DNA of 64,000 nucleotides from Buchnera aphidicola (Ceratovacuna keduensis). GTDB lineage: Bacteria > Pseudomonadota > Gammaproteobacteria > Enterobacterales > Enterobacteriaceae. A program made the translations under genes and the position numbers. Under the pieces are notes generated by a model that saw only the letters and a program-made list of their open reading frames with translations, was not told the origin of the DNA and ran no database searches. This document shows positions 33,342-54,329 of the stretch, piece by piece; the first letter of the stretch is position 1; each line of letters starts with the position of its first letter. The stretch covers positions 62,001-126,000 of the forward strand of contig NZ_CP134994.1 in NCBI RefSeq assembly GCF_039372665.1, given 5' to 3'.

Positions 33342-33369
33342 GTACCAGTCTTATATTTTTGGCTGGTAC
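33342..33369 (+). terminator. Hairpin after aroH, probable terminator
   Basis: Arms GTACCAGTC (33342-33350) and GGCTGGTAC (33361-33369) pair over 9 bases with one T-G, enclosing a 10-base loop of mostly T. It starts eight bases after the aroH stop. The T run after the stem is weak, so termination strength is uncertain. Confidence 0.65.
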
Positions 33370-33637
33370 AAAATTTTAATTATATATTTTTTTTTGATTA
33401 CATTAATGTTTTTAATTAAATAAAAATAATATATTAATTATAATGAAGTTTTTGTATATTATTAATTTTATATTAATAATAAAAAATAATGAATTAAAAA
33501 AAAAATCATTAAAAATTTTTTAATAAATACAAAATTTATAAAATATTAATTTTATATTTATTTATAAAATAAAAAATAAATTATTTAACATTGCCAATTT
33601 TATATTAACAGATAAATAATTTTCTTTAATAAATAAT
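33370..33637. other. Non-coding AT-rich spacer between aroH and thrS
   Basis: The whole gene-free stretch from the aroH stop to thrS is 303 bases. Apart from the aroH hairpin I see only A+T-rich sequence, with ATTATTAAT-type palindromes near 33460. No RNA gene or eroded reading frame is recognisable. The thrS frame is closed by a TAA at 33617-33619, so no lost N-terminal coding part is hidden here in frame. It must contain the promoter of the thrS-pheT cluster, which I cannot localise. Confidence 0.6.
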
Positions 33638-35371
33638 ATGAATAAAAAAGAATTTTTGAACGTTATACAAAACTCTTGTATACAATTATTGTCTTATGCT
33701 GTAAAAAAATTATGGCCTAAAACTAAATTTGCAAGTTTTGGTTTTAGTAAAAAAGAATTTTATTGCGATTTTGAAATGAAAAATAATTTAAATAAAAATA
33801 GTTTAAGTTTAATATTTAATAAAATGAAAGAACTTTGTAAAAATTATTATTGTATAAGATCTAAAAAATTTAATATAAATAGATTAATAAAAATTTTTTC
33901 TTCTTATAAAGAAAATTATCAAGTTTTTATTTTAAAAAATATTTTTAAAGATAAAAAAAAATTAATAAATATTTATTTTCACAATAATCATTTTGCTTTT
34001 GTTCCAGGAACTCAAATTAATAATATAAAACTTTGTAAAAATTTTTTTTTAACTAAATTTTCTGGTGTATACTGGAATGGTAAAAAAAATAATAAAGTTT
34101 TACAAAGAATATATGGAGTTGTTTTTTCTACTAAAAAAAAAATGTTATATTATATTAAAAAAAATATAGATTTAAATAAATATGATCATAGAAAATTAGG
34201 TGTTAAATTAAATTTATATCATATTGATAAAAAATCTCCTGGAATGATATTTTGGCATAAAAATGGTTTTATAATATTTGAATTATTAAAAAAATTTTTA
34301 AGAAAATATTTATATAAATATAATTATCAAGAAGTAATTACTCCTATTATAATGAGTAAAGATATATGGAAAAGAAGTGGTCATTTTAAAAGTTATAAAG
34401 AACATATTTTTAATACATTTTCTGAAAATAAAGATTATTGTATAAAACCTATGAATTGTCCAGGTCATATTAAAATATTTAATCAAACTATAAGATCTTA
34501 TAAAGATTTACCTATAAGATTATCTGAATTTGGAATTTGTCATAGAAATGAATATTCAGGTTCTCTTCATGGATTAATGAGAACTAGATCTTTTACTCAA
34601 GATGATGCACATATATTTTGCAGAAAAAGTCAGTTTGAAAAAGAAATAAATAAATGTATTAGAATGATATTTAAAATTTATAAAGTTTTTAATTTTAAAA
34701 ATATAAAAATACATTTTTCTACTAGACCAAAAAATAGTATTGGAGATGATAATACTTGGAAATTTTCAGAAGAAATTTTATATAAAATTTTAAAAAACAA
34801 TAATATAAATTTTAATTTTAAACATGGTGATGGTGCATTTTATGGACCAAAAATAGAATTCATTTTAGAGGATCGTTTATATAGAAATTGGCAATGTGGA
34901 ACTATTCAATTAGACTTTTATATTGCTAAACGTTTAAAAGTTTTTTATATTAATAAATATAATATAAAAAAAAATCCTATAATAATACATAGAGCAATTT
35001 TAGGATCTATTGAAAGATTTATAGGAATATTGTTAGAAGAATATTATGGAAATTTACCTTTATGGATATCTCCTATACAAATAGTTATAATAAGTGTATC
35101 TAAAAAACATAAATATTATGTAAAAAATATTTCTAAAAAATTAATTAAAAATGATTTTAGAGTTATTTATGATACAAATAATGTTACTATAAGTTCTAAA
35201 ATAAGAAAATATTCTACTATAAAAATTCCATATATTTTAATATGTGGAGACATGGAAATGAAAAGTTCAAGTTTAACAGTAAGAGATTTTAATGGAAAAA
35301 TAACTAATAGAGTTTTTGTTGAAGATTTTATAAAACAAATTTCAAAAAAAATATATTCTTATAGTTTTTAA
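33638..35371 (+). CDS. thrS: Threonyl-tRNA synthetase lacking TGS domain and editing residues
   Basis: ThrS charges tRNA-Thr. The product has 577 residues against 642 in E. coli. The N-terminal TGS domain is absent, confirmed by an in-frame stop 21 bases upstream. The second domain, which in E. coli hydrolyses Ser-tRNA-Thr, is present but its active residues are changed: His73 to Gln16, His77 to Tyr20, Asp180 to Ala120, Cys182 to Val122 and His186 to Gln126. The catalytic core is intact, with zinc ligands in KPMNCPGH, DDAHIFC and IIHRAILGS and the class II motifs around FGICHRNEYSGSLHGLMRTR. The anticodon domain closes the protein. It should charge but not proofread. It heads the thrS-infC-rpmI-rplT-pheST cluster. 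Confidence 0.95.
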   Translation: MNKKEFLNVIQNSCIQLLSYAVKKLWPKTKFASFGFSKKEFYCDFEMKNNLNKNSLSLIFNKMKELCKNYYCIRSKKFNINRLIKIFSSYKENYQVFILKNIFKDKKKLINIYFHNNHFAFVPGTQINNIKLCKNFFLTKFSGVYWNGKKNNKVLQRIYGVVFSTKKKMLYYIKKNIDLNKYDHRKLGVKLNLYHIDKKSPGMIFWHKNGFIIFELLKKFLRKYLYKYNYQEVITPIIMSKDIWKRSGHFKSYKEHIFNTFSENKDYCIKPMNCPGHIKIFNQTIRSYKDLPIRLSEFGICHRNEYSGSLHGLMRTRSFTQDDAHIFCRKSQFEKEINKCIRMIFKIYKVFNFKNIKIHFSTRPKNSIGDDNTWKFSEEILYKILKNNNINFNFKHGDGAFYGPKIEFILEDRLYRNWQCGTIQLDFYIAKRLKVFYINKYNIKKNPIIIHRAILGSIERFIGILLEEYYGNLPLWISPIQIVIISVSKKHKYYVKNISKKLIKNDFRVIYDTNNVTISSKIRKYSTIKIPYILICGDMEMKSSSLTVRDFNGKITNRVFVEDFIKQISKKIYSYSF

Positions 35372-35388
35372 CTTAGAGGAAATACAGT

Positions 35389-35928
35389 ATTAAATTAAAA
35401 AAAAAAAATAAATTTGCTAAAAATAATAAGATAAATAAACAAATAACAGCAAATAAAGTTCGTTTAATAGGAATTGATGGTAATTTAATAGGGATAGTTA
35501 ATTTAGAAGAAGCTATAATGGAATCAGAAAAGATTAATTGTGATTTAGTTGAAATTAATCCTAATTCTTTTCCTCCTGTTTGCAGAATAATGAATTATGG
35601 AAAATTTTTATATGAAAAAAATAAAAATTCTAAATTTCAAAATAAAAATCAAAAAAAAATTCAAATTAAAGAAATAAAATTTAGACCTGTTACTTTTGAA
35701 GGAGATTATCAAGTAAAGTTAAGAAGACTAAAAAAATTTTTATTATTAGGAAATAAAGTGAAAATTACTATTAGATTTAGAGGAAGGGAAATGACTCATA
35801 AAGAAATTGGAATAAATGTTTTACATAGAGTTAAAAATGATTTATCTGATATTTCTACAGTAGATTTTTTTCCTAGAAAAATTGAAGGAAGACAGATGAT
35901 AATGTTATTATCTTCTAAAAAAAAATAA
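35389..35928 (+). CDS. infC: Translation initiation factor IF-3 with AUU start codon
   Basis: IF-3 binds the 30S subunit and checks the start codon. The frame reads upstream of the first ATG (35518) through residues aligned to E. coli IF-3 ([16 protein letters not shown]), and the only plausible start is ATT at 35389, preceded by AGAGGA at 35375-35380 and closed upstream by TAG at 35374-35376. This gives 179 residues (180 in E. coli). E. coli infC also starts at AUU, the basis of its autoregulation. Core motifs are [24 protein letters not shown] and [12 protein letters not shown]. Twelve A residues (35397-35408) follow the start closely. thrS ends 17 bases before. Confidence 0.95.
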
Positions 35929-37678: not shown

Positions 37679-40072
37679 ATGAAGATTAGTAAAAACTGGA
37701 TAATGGAATGGATAAATTTTCCAATAAATTTTGAAAAAGTTTGTAAAAATTTAACTAAAATAGGTATAGAAGTAGAAAAATATAATAAAATATGCATGAA
37801 TTATGATAATTTAATGGTTGGTAAAATAATTTTAAAAAAAGAAATTTTTTTAGATAAAAAAAAATTTTTTATATATTCTATAAAAATAAAAAAAAATATT
37901 GTTATAAAATCATTTTCTTTATTTAATTGTAAAATTAAAAGTAAAATTATTGTTTCAACTTCTAAAAATCAATTTTCTCAAATAGTATATTCTTCTTTGT
38001 TAAAATATCATCATTATAATTCTAAATTTTTTATTTGTTCTCCTTTTTCTATAGGTATTTCAAATATAAAAAATATTCCAGTAAAACTACCTAGTTGTTT
38101 TGATTTAAATGAAAATATTTTAAAAAAAATAAAAATTTTTGATAATATATTTAAATTTAATATTCCTTATAATAGATTAAAAGAATTAAATATAATTGGA
38201 ATTTGTAGAGAAATATATGCTATTTATAATATAAATTTTAATTATTTTAAAAACAATTTAATAGAAAAAAAATATAATAAACATTATATAAAAGTTTTAA
38301 TAGAAAAAAAAATAAATAATTATTGTTATTTAGGAAGAAAATTAATTAAATTAAATATGAACATTAAAACTCCATTATGGATTTCTAAAAGACTAAAAAT
38401 ATCTAATATAAAAAGTCAAAATGTATTATATGATATTATAAATTATGTATATTTAGAAACTGGAGAACATTTTCATTTTTTTGAATTTAATGATTTTAAT
38501 AAAAAAATTTTTATAAAAGTTTTAAAATGTTCCAAGGAAATCAATGTATTTAAAAAAAAAATTTTTTTAAAAAAAAATAGTATAGTATTATGCAATAAAA
38601 AAAAAATATTAGTTTTTGGAAATAATTTTAATATTGAAAAATATGGTTATATTAAAAATTATGCAAACATATTTTTAGGTTCTTTATTTTTAAAAAAAAA
38701 TATTTTTACAAATAATAAAAAAATTGATTTTAATAATAGAAAAATAAATTATTTTTATCATAGTAGTAATATTGATTCTCAACTTTTTGCATTAAAATAT
38801 ATTACAAAAATAATTTTAATGGTTTGTGGTGGTTATTCTAAAAAAATAGTTAATTTTAATGATTTAAAAAAAAATAATAAAAAAAATATTTTTTTATATA
38901 ATAAAAATATAAGTAGAATTATTGGATGTTCATTAAAAAATGATATAATAGAAAATATATTAAAAAAATTAAATTATACATTTTTGAAATATAAAAATAA
39001 ATTTGAAGTTTTTGTACCAAGTTATAGAAATGATATATTAATTGAAGAAGATGTTATATCTGATATAATAAGATTTTATGGAATTGATAATATACCTTAT
39101 TCATCACCATGTGACAAATATAATATTACTTATAAAAATTATAATAAAAATAATTTTTTTAAAGAAATAAAGTTTTTTTTAATATCTAAAGGTTATAGTG
39201 AAGTTATAAATTATAGTTTTATAAATTTTAATAATCAGAAATTATTTTCTAATATTTCAAATTATATAGATGTAAAAAATCCAATTTCTAAAAATATGTC
39301 TGTTATGAGATCTTCTTTGTTTCCAGGTTTATTAGAAAATTTTGTATATAATATAAATAGACAAAATAATTTTATTAAAATTTTTGAATTAGGATTATGT
39401 TACTTTAAAAATAAAAAAAAATATTTAGGAATTGATCAGAAAAAATTTTTATCTTGTTTAATTTATAAAAATTCTAATTGTGAAAATTTTAATTCAACAA
39501 ATAAAGAACTAGATTTTTATGATTTAAAAGGTGATTTAGAATATATTTTTGAAATTTTTAGATTAAATAATAATATAAAATATATAAGTAAAAATTTTAT
39601 AGGTTTTGATAAAAAAATTAGTTCTGCTATATTTTTAAATAAAAAATATATTGGAAAAATTGGAAAATTAGATAAAAATGTTTTAAAAAATTTTAATTTT
39701 AATAAAAATGTTGATTTATTTTTATTTGAAATTTGTATAGAAAATATTAGTAAAAAAGAAATTTCAAATATAGAAAAAATTTCAGAATATCCTAAAATTA
39801 ATAGAGATATTTCTATTATAGTTTTAGAAAATGTAAAATGTTATAATATAATAAATTTTTTTAAAAAAATATTTTTTAAAAATTTAATAGATATTTATAT
39901 TTTTGATATTTATACTGGAAAAAATATTTCTAGTAATAAAAAAAGTATTTCAATAAGATTAGTATTTCAAAGTTTAGAAAAAACTTTAAAAGAAATTAAT
40001 ATAGATAATTTTATAAAAGAAAAATTAAAAATTGTTAAAGAAAAATTTAATGCTACTATAAGAGAAAAATAA
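37679..40072 (+). CDS. pheT: Phenylalanyl-tRNA synthetase beta subunit with eroded editing site
   Basis: PheT completes the synthetase and normally hydrolyses Tyr-tRNA-Phe in its B3/B4 domain. The product has 797 residues (795 in E. coli). The N-terminal tRNA-binding region is divergent; the C-terminal anticodon-binding domain (EYPKINRDISIIVLENV onward) is clear, as are PSYRNDILIEEDVISDIIRF and NPISKNMSVMRSSLFPGLLE. In the editing domain the conserved glycine loop GGIFGG reads FGNNFN near residue 313, the ECAFF block is GSLFL near 334, and the TDASHRYERG signature has become an unrelated RKINYFYHSS around 354-363. One histidine (His266 in EHFHFFE) remains. Charging is probably intact; editing is doubtful. 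Confidence 0.94.
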   Translation: MKISKNWIMEWINFPINFEKVCKNLTKIGIEVEKYNKICMNYDNLMVGKIILKKEIFLDKKKFFIYSIKIKKNIVIKSFSLFNCKIKSKIIVSTSKNQFSQIVYSSLLKYHHYNSKFFICSPFSIGISNIKNIPVKLPSCFDLNENILKKIKIFDNIFKFNIPYNRLKELNIIGICREIYAIYNINFNYFKNNLIEKKYNKHYIKVLIEKKINNYCYLGRKLIKLNMNIKTPLWISKRLKISNIKSQNVLYDIINYVYLETGEHFHFFEFNDFNKKIFIKVLKCSKEINVFKKKIFLKKNSIVLCNKKKILVFGNNFNIEKYGYIKNYANIFLGSLFLKKNIFTNNKKIDFNNRKINYFYHSSNIDSQLFALKYITKIILMVCGGYSKKIVNFNDLKKNNKKNIFLYNKNISRIIGCSLKNDIIENILKKLNYTFLKYKNKFEVFVPSYRNDILIEEDVISDIIRFYGIDNIPYSSPCDKYNITYKNYNKNNFFKEIKFFLISKGYSEVINYSFINFNNQKLFSNISNYIDVKNPISKNMSVMRSSLFPGLLENFVYNINRQNNFIKIFELGLCYFKNKKKYLGIDQKKFLSCLIYKNSNCENFNSTNKELDFYDLKGDLEYIFEIFRLNNNIKYISKNFIGFDKKISSAIFLNKKYIGKIGKLDKNVLKNFNFNKNVDLFLFEICIENISKKEISNIEKISEYPKINRDISIIVLENVKCYNIINFFKKIFFKNLIDIYIFDIYTGKNISSNKKSISIRLVFQSLEKTLKEINIDNFIKEKLKIVKEKFNATIREK

Positions 40073-51530: not shown

Positions 51531-54329
51531 TTATAAAAAATTTCTTTTTTCACCTATTTTTGTAATATTTTCTATACATCTCATACATAAATTTTTATAT
51601 ATTAGTTCTTTTTTTTTATTTTTTTTAAAAAAATTCCAGCATCTTTCACATTTTTTTCCTTTGTATTTTTTAACATATATTTTAATTTCTTTTTTTGATT
51701 TATTTTTTGTTTTAATATCTTTTATTTTTACTTTAGATACTATGAACATAAATTTTATTTCTTTTTTTAATATTTCAATTTTTTTTTTAATATTTTTGTT
51801 AACATATATTTTTATATATGATTCTAAAGAATTTTTTATAATTTTTTTTCTTATTGATTTTTCTATTTCAATGTTAACTTTATTTTTTATTAATATTAAA
51901 TTTTGCCAATCTGATAAATTTAAAATTTCATTTTTTGAAAAACTTTTTAATTTATTAAACCAATTTTGTGTAAATATATGAGTTTTATTATTTTTTTTAA
52001 TAAATTCCCATATTTCATATGATGTAAAAGGTAAAATAGGATAAATCCATATTACCATTGCATTTAAAATTTTATGTAAAGTTGTTTGACAACTTTTTCT
52101 TTCTAAACTTTTTTTTGGAAGAGTATATAATCTATCTTTTATTATATCTAAATAAAATGATCCTAGTTCTAAATTACAAAATTTAGTAATAATATTTATT
52201 ATTTTATGAAATTCATATTTTTCATAAAAATTTATTATTTTTTTTTGTATTATTTTAGTTCTACCTATTATCCATTTATCTATTAATATAAGTTTTTTAT
52301 ATTTTATATTTTCTAAATTTTCTTTAAAATCATATAAATTAGATAACATAAATTTTATAGTATTTCTTATTTTTCTATATATATCTATAACATTGTTTAT
52401 TACATTATTTGATATTACTATTTCTTTTAAATAATCAGTAGAAGAAACCCAAAGTCTAAGAATATCAGCTCCAAAATTTTTTATTATTTTACTTGGTTTA
52501 ATAATGTTTCCTTCTGATTTTGACATTTTTTTTCCATTTTTATCTACTACAAATCCATGAGCTATTACATTTTTATATGGTGACATTTTTTTTGTAATCA
52601 TCGAAATTATAATAGAAGACATAAACCATCCTCTATATTGATCTGATCCTTCTATATATAAATCTGCTTTTAATTTTTTTTTAAAATTTTTATATACAGA
52701 ATTTACATCTATAGATCCAGAATCAAACCATACATCTAATACGTCTTTACTTTTAAAATAATTTTTTTCTTTTTTAAACAAAAATTCTTTTTTTTCTATA
52801 TTTTCCCAATATTCATTACCTAATTTAAATAAGTTTTTTTCAATTTTTTCAATAAATTTTTTTGTATTATAATGCATTTTATTAGTATTTTTTTCTACAA
52901 AAATAGTTATAGGCACTCCCCAATGTCTTTGTCTAGAAATACACCAGTCTGGTCTGTTTTTTAACATATTTATCATTTTTTTCATTCCCCATTCTGGTTT
53001 CCATTTTACTTTTTTTATTTCTTTTATAACTTGTTTTTTAAATTTTTTTTTATTTATATTTATAAACCATTGAGGTCTAGATATAAAAATTATTGGATAA
53101 TTATGTCTCCAACAAAATGGATATTTATGAAAAATATTTTTTTTATATATTATTTTATTTTTTTTTTTTAATATTTTTATAATAATTTTATTAGAATCAA
53201 AAATAAATTTTTTATTTAATAATTTATGTATATTTTTTTTATAAAAACCATTTTTTGTTATTAAATTTAATGGTTTTATATCATATTTTTTTCCAGCTTC
53301 AAAATCTTCTGGACCATTGTCAGGAGATATATGAACTAAACCAGTTCCAACTTTTAAATTTACATGATTGGACAAAATTATAGGTACATTTTTTTTTATA
53401 AATGGATGATGACATTTTATAAATTCTATTTTTTTTCCTAGTTCTTTTCCTAATATTTTATATTTTTTTATTTTAAACTCTTTTAAAATTGATTTTGTTA
53501 TTTTTTTTGCTAAAATTATGTTAATTTTTTTTGTTTCTATAATATTATAATATATATTGGCATTTAAAGATATTGCTTGATTTGATGGTAAACTCCATGG
53601 AGTTGTTGTCCAAATAGGTGCATAAATATTTTTTTTATTTTTTTTTATTTTAAATATTTTTTTTAATTTTTCTTTTTCTTTTATTTTAAATAATACAAAA
53701 ATTGTATTACATTTTTTTTTTTTATATTTTAATTCTGCTTCAGCTAATGAAGATTTACATTTTATACACCAATGTATTGGTTTATATGCAGAATATATAT
53801 ATTTTTTTTTAATTATTTTTTTTAATTTATTTATTACATTTTTTTGGCTTTTTAGATTCATAGTAATATATGAATTTTTCCAATTTGCGAATATTCCTAA
53901 TCTAATAAATTCTTTTTTTTGTCTTGATATCTGTTTTAAAACATACTTTTTACATTTTTTTTTAAAATATTTTTTATCTATTTTTTTTTTATTTTTTTTT
54001 ATTTTTTCTTCAATTTTTTGTTCTATAGGTAATCCATGACAATCCCAAGATGGAGTATATAATGCATTGAAATTAGATAAACATTTAGATTTTATTATTA
54101 TGTCTTTTAATATTTTATTTAATGCATGTCCTATATGTATATTTCCATTTGCGTATGGAGGTCCATCTTGTAATATAAATTTTTCTTTATTTATATTATT
54201 TTTTTCTATTATTTTTTGTATATTTAACTTTTTCCATTTTTTTAAAATTTCTGGTTCTTTATTTATTAAATTAGCTTTCATAGAAAATTTTGTTTTAGGC
54301 AAATTTAATGTTTTTTTATAATTTTTCAT
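51531..54329 (-). CDS. ileS: Isoleucyl-tRNA synthetase
   Basis: IleS charges tRNA-Ile. The product has 932 residues (938 in E. coli). Class I signatures are GPPYANGNIHIGHALNKILK (HIGH) and KNGKKMSKSEGNIIKPSKII. The editing domain appears functional: TTTPWSLPSNQAISL, and VHISPDNGPEDFEAGKKY keeps the His and Asp equivalent to E. coli 333 and 342. A C-terminal zinc finger (CERCW with CMRCIENI) is present. In E. coli ribF precedes it and lspA-ispH lie between it and dapB; all are absent here, with 85 bases to dapB. Confidence 0.97.
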   Translation of the reverse strand: MKNYKKTLNLPKTKFSMKANLINKEPEILKKWKKLNIQKIIEKNNINKEKFILQDGPPYANGNIHIGHALNKILKDIIIKSKCLSNFNALYTPSWDCHGLPIEQKIEEKIKKNKKKIDKKYFKKKCKKYVLKQISRQKKEFIRLGIFANWKNSYITMNLKSQKNVINKLKKIIKKKYIYSAYKPIHWCIKCKSSLAEAELKYKKKKCNTIFVLFKIKEKEKLKKIFKIKKNKKNIYAPIWTTTPWSLPSNQAISLNANIYYNIIETKKINIILAKKITKSILKEFKIKKYKILGKELGKKIEFIKCHHPFIKKNVPIILSNHVNLKVGTGLVHISPDNGPEDFEAGKKYDIKPLNLITKNGFYKKNIHKLLNKKFIFDSNKIIIKILKKKNKIIYKKNIFHKYPFCWRHNYPIIFISRPQWFININKKKFKKQVIKEIKKVKWKPEWGMKKMINMLKNRPDWCISRQRHWGVPITIFVEKNTNKMHYNTKKFIEKIEKNLFKLGNEYWENIEKKEFLFKKEKNYFKSKDVLDVWFDSGSIDVNSVYKNFKKKLKADLYIEGSDQYRGWFMSSIIISMITKKMSPYKNVIAHGFVVDKNGKKMSKSEGNIIKPSKIIKNFGADILRLWVSSTDYLKEIVISNNVINNVIDIYRKIRNTIKFMLSNLYDFKENLENIKYKKLILIDKWIIGRTKIIQKKIINFYEKYEFHKIINIITKFCNLELGSFYLDIIKDRLYTLPKKSLERKSCQTTLHKILNAMVIWIYPILPFTSYEIWEFIKKNNKTHIFTQNWFNKLKSFSKNEILNLSDWQNLILIKNKVNIEIEKSIRKKIIKNSLESYIKIYVNKNIKKKIEILKKEIKFMFIVSKVKIKDIKTKNKSKKEIKIYVKKYKGKKCERCWNFFKKNKKKELIYKNLCMRCIENITKIGEKRNFL

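Follow-up and report, generated by a model that had tools for sequence, protein, structure and literature searches.

Threonyl-tRNA synthetase (ThrRS) of bacteria usually, though not in every case, has a TGS domain, and it usually has an active editing site. The E. coli enzyme has both, and the thrS gene considered here encodes an enzyme with neither. The locus raises the question of what a cell would keep a dead editing domain for once the TGS domain in front of it has gone, and of what becomes of any Ser-tRNA-Thr that such an enzyme might make.

Gene and Aminoacylation Core

The window (the whole 64,000-nucleotide stretch of DNA that was analyzed) comes from a 99.47% complete genome, with three contigs totaling 422,862 bases, which we take to be that of a Buchnera from an aphid of the cerataphidine tribe. 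One contig, a 7 kb plasmid carrying leuB and leuC, is 91.6% identical, over the 3000 bases searched, to the plasmid of the Pseudoregma panicola symbiont; the third contig had no match to any plasmid record. Among the matches listed, the closest named ThrRS is that of the Buchnera of Pseudoregma panicola (85%), followed by that of Ceratovacuna japonica (80%). The first-pass annotation of this DNA had spoken of a host-restricted bacterium, which agrees with the reduced genome and with Buchnera as the closest named source of both ThrRS and plasmid. The gene and its parts are as follows:

33456 to 33637, forward strand: fossil of the TGS domain, aligned to genome G005; the former ATG is now ATA (33456 to 33458), and in-frame stops include TAA at 33617 to 33619
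33638 to 35371, forward strand: thrS, threonyl-tRNA synthetase, 577 aa, without a TGS (N1) domain (open reading frame, TIGR00418, E. coli alignment)
33644 to 34132, forward strand: N2 editing domain, equivalent to E. coli 64 to 225, fold predicted to be kept (pLDDT, 1qf6 alignment), catalytic site lost
33671 to 33685, forward strand: former HxxxH motif, Asn12 (AAC, 33671 to 33673) and Gln16 (CAA, 33683 to 33685) for E. coli H73 and H77 (alignment, codons)
33995 to 34015, forward strand: former DxC...H motif, Ala120 (33995 to 33997), Val122 (34001 to 34003), and Gln126 (34013 to 34015) for D180, C182, and H186
34184 to 35059, forward strand: class II aminoacylation core with zinc ligands C274, H325, and H451 (alignment; Pfam tRNA-synt_2b, 164.3 bits; pN/pS)
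35060 to 35368, forward strand: anticodon-binding domain of ThrRS (Pfam HGTP_anticodon, 64 bits)

The NCBIfam model for threonine--tRNA ligase (TIGR00418) matches the protein at 607.2 bits (cut-off 383.65), and sequence alignment with E. coli K-12 ThrRS gives 44.7% identity over 575 columns. The alignment with the E. coli structure (1qf6, about 44% identical) begins only at residue 4, which corresponds to E. coli residue 65, so the TGS part is missing and the gene does begin past the end of that domain, as had been proposed; from there on the N2, core, and anticodon domains of the two enzymes are co-linear. The aminoacylation core appears intact, again in keeping with the earlier reading. The zinc ligands C274, H325, and H451 align with C334, H385, and H511 of E. 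coli, and 17 of the 17 positions that we take to form the core active site (E. coli numbering, zinc ligands included) are the same as in a free-living relative (L021). From its sequence, then, this ThrRS would still charge tRNA-Thr by means of its zinc-dependent core.

Downstream of thrS lie infC, rplT, pheS, and pheT, in that order (open reading frames; pheT by alignment), which is the order annotated in E. coli. The apparent start of infC is ATT at 35389 to 35391, with AGAGG at 35375 to 35379, and the list of open reading frames starts the gene at an internal ATG at 35518. An AUU start is a known hallmark of infC.

Loss of the Editing Site

Alignment with E. coli K-12 ThrRS pairs H73 with N12, H77 with Q16, Y104 with C43, K156 with Q95, D180 with A120, C182 with V122, and H186 with Q126. 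The first-pass annotation had named the same partners for D180, C182, and H186; its partners for His73 (Gln16) and His77 (Tyr20) were one step off, and Tyr20 pairs with E. coli His81. On the corrected alignment its central claim holds, since none of the five catalytic editing residues (H73, H77, D180, C182, and H186) is left. The count is likewise zero of five in each of the six genomes of the genus, so the loss in this enzyme is not due to chance. An assembly or gene-calling artefact might be suspected in a sequence that is very AT-rich and has long runs of A; given the same empty site in all six genomes and a second TGS-less genome that starts thrS at the same place, we consider this explanation exceedingly unlikely.

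In terms of structure, the fold of the editing domain is predicted to remain, as had been claimed. The editing site has its own Pfam family, tRNA_SAD, which scores 22.5 bits on the protein (under the cut-off of 24) and 26.6 bits at ThrRS in the genome search (over it). The predicted model, for which the whole protein was folded on 48 chosen rows, some with intact editing sites, has a mean pLDDT of 90.2 and 83 to 96 in the N2 block. Its structural alignment with 1qf6 covers 574 residues and is co-linear (model 3 to 577 on chain 64 to 637), and the VIA-align rows for this comparison cover mostly the core. The structure-based alignment proposed earlier thus agrees, at the level of a model, with the sequence pairs and does not restore the catalytic residues. 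A displaced motif was also looked for: residues 1 to 166 contain neither HxxxH nor CxxxH, and their only histidines are at 115 and 118. N2 thus offers no alternative motif of this kind.

That editing persists by way of other residues or a shifted motif is very improbable in our judgment. Selection still acts on N2 in most genome pairs (see below), and most Buchnera rows among the matches listed keep D180 and K156, both of which would speak for it. However, both of these residues are replaced in the window's enzyme, the model is co-linear with 1qf6, and His115 and His118 are the sole histidines of a domain without HxxxH or CxxxH.

Age of the Loss

The earlier reading had framed the editing loss as a feature of this genome, and this frame turned out to be wrong. 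We compared ThrRS with 67 rows named Buchnera, identified by eye (own row excluded) in the best 120 of about 8000 candidates, a list ranked by likeness to the window's dead enzyme. None of the 67 has an intact editing site; two of the five residues are kept in 13, one in 42, and none in 12. H186 is lost in all 67, H73 in 66, C182 in 63, and H77 in 58. The other 52 rows of the best 120 include 7 intact sites, 3 from other named symbionts and 4 for which no organism is given. Because no Buchnera row is intact, the loss is probably old: as old as Buchnera or older by these sequences, or else very often repeated.

These relatives have the same gene, with the editing residues lost and the zinc core kept. 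ThrRS of the Ceratovacuna japonica Buchnera also resembles the window's in having no TGS domain. Most Buchnera ThrRS differ from it here: in 64 of the 67 rows of the best 120, no fewer than 40 of the 59 TGS positions are filled. Most rows also differ in retaining D180 (54 of 67) and K156 (53 of 67), neither of which the window's enzyme has. D180 has gone from 13 rows of the 67, and the same 13, and no others of the set, carry K156Q; so confined a pattern may reflect few independent events.

Among the matches listed, the D180 and K156 pair outlasted the rest of the catalytic residues across most of the genus. Its persistence hints at some residual function of the pocket elsewhere in the genus.

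Fate of Ser-tRNA-Thr

Mutational data on E. coli ThrRS give a measure of what these residues contribute. Editing kcat fell about 7000-fold in H73A, more than 500-fold in C182A/S, and 70-fold in H186A (PMC4041444). With all of these residues lost together, hydrolysis of Ser-tRNA-Thr in the N2 pocket is very unlikely, and by its sequence we infer that the window's enzyme cannot perform it. By analogy with the E. coli biochemistry, serine would then enter threonine codons at a modest rate.

A free-standing editing domain elsewhere in the genome, which the first reading had listed as something to look for, was not found. Profile searches of the genome (99.47% complete) placed tRNA_SAD only in AlaRS and ThrRS, with no second gene of this family. 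They likewise returned no archaeal-type ThrRS editing domain (tRNA-Thr_ED, PF08915), no D-aminoacyl-tRNA deacylase (DTD), and no match of the YbaK family over the cut-off, the one match of that family being at 12.9 bits in ProRS. The same searches were positive in 14 (tRNA_SAD), 5 (PF08915), 12 (YbaK family), and 10 (DTD) of 14 control genomes. The searches thus gave no replacement in trans from these four families.

Even with editing dead, mistranslation could be prevented by pre-transfer editing at the core, by discrimination at EF-Tu, or by a high Thr:Ser ratio. Yeast mitochondrial ThrRS, which has no N2, performs tRNA-dependent pre-transfer editing (PMC4267643), the disappearance of an editing domain does not necessarily lead to errors, as a review cautions (PMC11415595), and thrC is present in the window's genome. 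Against this, the yeast study itself says that Ser-tRNA-Thr still forms when pre-transfer editing is the only safeguard (PMC4267643), and the link between thrC and loss of ThrRS editing is not significant (p = 0.067). We therefore regard full protection as rather unlikely and keep to some entry of serine at threonine codons.

The TGS Fossil

The in-frame TAA at 33617 to 33619 that was first taken to exclude a hidden N terminus is present, and further stops lie upstream in the same frame. Compared with the open TGS frame of the sister genome G005, the fossil is identical at 48 of 60, 47 of 60, and 48 of 61 sites at codon positions 1, 2, and 3 (0.80, 0.78, and 0.79), which amounts to no coding signal. 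Genome G004 is likewise without TGS. A tree of five synthetases (4263 aligned columns) groups the window's genome (G000) with G005 and places G004 outside, ((G000,G005),G004), with support of 100; together with the open frame in G005, this is most simply explained by two separate losses of TGS. Going by these alignments, the loss of TGS is recent and that of editing old, two events of very different age.

No Shine-Dalgarno-like sequence precedes the new thrS start (33620 to 33637), and the old TGS start in G005 has AAAAGG upstream. A hairpin, GTACCAG...CTGGTAC at 33342 to 33369, lies between the DAHP synthase gene and thrS and is conserved across an alignment of the DNA from three genomes. It resembles a terminator, in which case a separate promoter for thrS may lie within or close to the TGS fossil.

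Selection on the Remaining Domains

Selection was assessed by pN/pS in six genomes of the genus, giving 15 pairs that share taxa and are not independent, against 100 neutral, AT-biased simulations per pair. Values for the core were 0.17 to 0.33 in 15 of 15 pairs, those for N2 were 0.28 to 1.06, and those for the anticodon domain were 0.27 to 0.80. For N2, none of the 100 simulations reached the observed pN/pS in 12 of the 15 pairs, among them all 10 pairs without G003. The exceptions (4, 1, and 13 of 100 simulations; pN/pS up to 1.06) all involve G003, the most diverged genome, and the weaker signal there perhaps comes from saturation. For TGS, pN/pS was 0.66 to 0.95 in six pairs (47 to 59 codons), and the observed value was reached in 0, 3, 4, 15, 18, and 19 of 100 simulations. 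The TGS pair G001/G002 gave 5 of 200 in an earlier run of 4 pairs, whose simulations stop differently, versus 0 of 100 in the 15-pair run. In most comparisons purifying selection acts on N2, about as strongly as on the anticodon domain, and TGS is weakly or not constrained. Because TGS was tested on so few codons and shows weak constraint in some pairs, its contrast with N2 is one of degree only. This result separates a catalytic from a tRNA-holding role of N2, and the dead domain probably serves as a clamp for the acceptor stem.

N2 could instead be merely decaying, its persistence reflecting lag time and its fate being that of TGS. The weak constraint on TGS would fit such a course, as would four other reduced genomes with a ThrRS frame without N2 (see below) and the finding that, in every dead ThrRS retaining N2, this domain is less conserved than the core (identity to E. 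coli in the window's ThrRS of 0.33 for N2 versus 0.49 for the core). However, long after the loss of catalysis, N2 in 12 of the 15 pairs still has a lower pN/pS than any of the 100 neutral simulations, with a constraint close to that on the anticodon domain, and we hold simple decay to be improbable.

A kept clamp is the reading that we prefer. It seems to us quite probable that the charging core is intact, that editing died in or before the Buchnera radiation, that TGS was lost later, and that N2 was kept as a clamp. The post-transfer editing site of ThrRS would have died in Buchnera, or before its radiation, with nothing else found in the genome that could hydrolyze Ser-tRNA-Thr, and TGS would have been lost later and independently in the window's lineage. 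The N2 fold would have persisted because its hold on the acceptor stem is still of use in charging, and perhaps also in pre-transfer editing in the core; TGS would have decayed because it had little or no such use.

Selective Loss among Synthetases

Published cases of editing loss in host-restricted bacteria already exist, and the Buchnera ThrRS adds another. Editing-defective synthetases of such bacteria were reportedly described by Melnikov in 2018. Those cases share with the present one a reduced genome, a degenerate editing domain, and an affected ThrRS. The Mycoplasma precedent invoked in the first-pass annotation is in print: two papers describe editing-defective synthetases (PMC4014445, PMC10057733), the first reporting editing-domain defects in LeuRS, PheRS, and ThrRS. 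Among the literature matches listed for Buchnera with synthetase editing domain or mistranslation, no title concerned Buchnera ThrRS, and a term search of PMC9035817 found no mention of editing outside its references.

In contrast to the published cases, Buchnera keeps the editing sites of AlaRS, IleRS, and ValRS, as known here from sequence. Two of the genes compared lie in the window:

37679 to 40072, forward strand: pheT, PheRS beta, with the B3/4 domain present (B3_4, 69 bits), G318N, E334G, T354N, and A356K replaced, and H265 kept
51531 to 54329, reverse strand: ileS, IleRS, with editing residues T241 to T243, N250, H333, and D342 intact and Ser at T246 (alignment)

The positions that we take to be the editing residues of AlaRS, IleRS, ValRS, LeuRS, and PheRS were read in the six genomes of the genus. 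All six keep H564, H568, C666, H670, and Q584 of AlaRS, T222, K277, and D286 of ValRS, and T241 to T243, N250, H333, and D342 of IleRS, with Ser at T246 of the last in 4 of 6. All six have lost G318, E334, T354, and A356 of PheRS beta, with H265 kept. The GTG stretch of LeuRS (L059, L101 to L105) is missing from all six genomes and its D345 from five of them; T252 is still in place, and the LeuRS editing domain is recognizable in the window's genome at 125.6 bits. For ProRS, in the window's genome only, the insertion-domain family scores 12.8 bits against a cut-off of 25.5. AlaRS was also read in the best 120 of about 8000 candidates (own row excluded), where its four HxxxH...CxxxH residues are intact in 120 of 120 rows, including all 66 identified by eye as Buchnera; the AlaRS and ThrRS Buchnera sets overlap and are not identical in species.

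Judged by these residues, editing loss in the genus is selective: the sites of ThrRS, PheRS, and largely LeuRS are lost and those of AlaRS, IleRS, and ValRS are intact. The earlier phrase "relaxed translational accuracy" is therefore too broad, since the last three sites are intact in 6 of 6 of the same genomes. AlaRS, with the same kind of HxxxH...CxxxH site, is an internal control in these genomes, and its keeping what ThrRS lost means that the cell is not simply indifferent to accuracy. Synthetases differ in their rates of misactivation, and a likely guess is that editing is kept by those that misactivate most often. A fuller account, in which catalysis was lost ahead of the Buchnera radiation, N2 is purely a tRNA clamp whose fold is selected, TGS is now being shed, serine at threonine codons is tolerated, and accuracy is dismantled selectively, strikes us as evenly poised. 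If it is true, Buchnera tolerates serine at threonine codons, and yet the AlaRS pocket keeps serine off alanine codons.

Editing in Reduced Genomes of the Order

The ThrRS site was examined in 38 of the order's reduced genomes, picked by size. Ten are intact, four have only H73 changed, and four have open frames without N2. These results provide a graded natural series within one bacterial order: intact site, single-residue loss, dead fold kept, and N2 gone. It thus becomes directly testable which steps of proofreading a minimal cell can do without, and for what reason.

A supply argument, by which threonine makers can drop ThrRS editing, was tried with thrC, searched in 147 genomes with sub-cut-off matches (G026, G034, and G067) counted as absent. 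Three thrC genomes of 1.9 to 2.0 Mb (G043, G120, and G140) are not among the 38. ThrRS is intact in 2 of 18 genomes with thrC and 8 of 20 without, which is the expected direction and is not significant (p = 0.067) in a Fisher test that ignores kinship, 6 of the 18 being from one genus. The thrC-less genomes include seven with a dead or N2-less ThrRS (G010, G012, G026, G105, G078, G011, and G091). With the link not significant, the supply argument gained no firm support.

The four frames without N1 and N2 (G010, G012, G026, and G105; loci L036, L037, L038, and L085) encode 407 to 433 aa and indicate that N2 is not indispensable in every lineage. They represent a second path of loss, akin to the one in yeast mitochondria, whose MST1 has no N2 at all (PMC4267643; PDB 4eo4). 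The window's enzyme is distinct from this minimal type in that N1 is absent but an N2 fold is predicted. G012 (no N2) pairs with G076 (intact site) at a support of 93 in a ThrRS-core tree of the 38 genomes and E. coli, whose deep branches are poorly resolved and which was used only for this pairing.

H73 is the sole change among the five residues in G018, G020, G062, and G111. It may have changed first there, though its loss costs the E. coli enzyme 7000-fold, more than that of C182 or H186 (PMC4041444).
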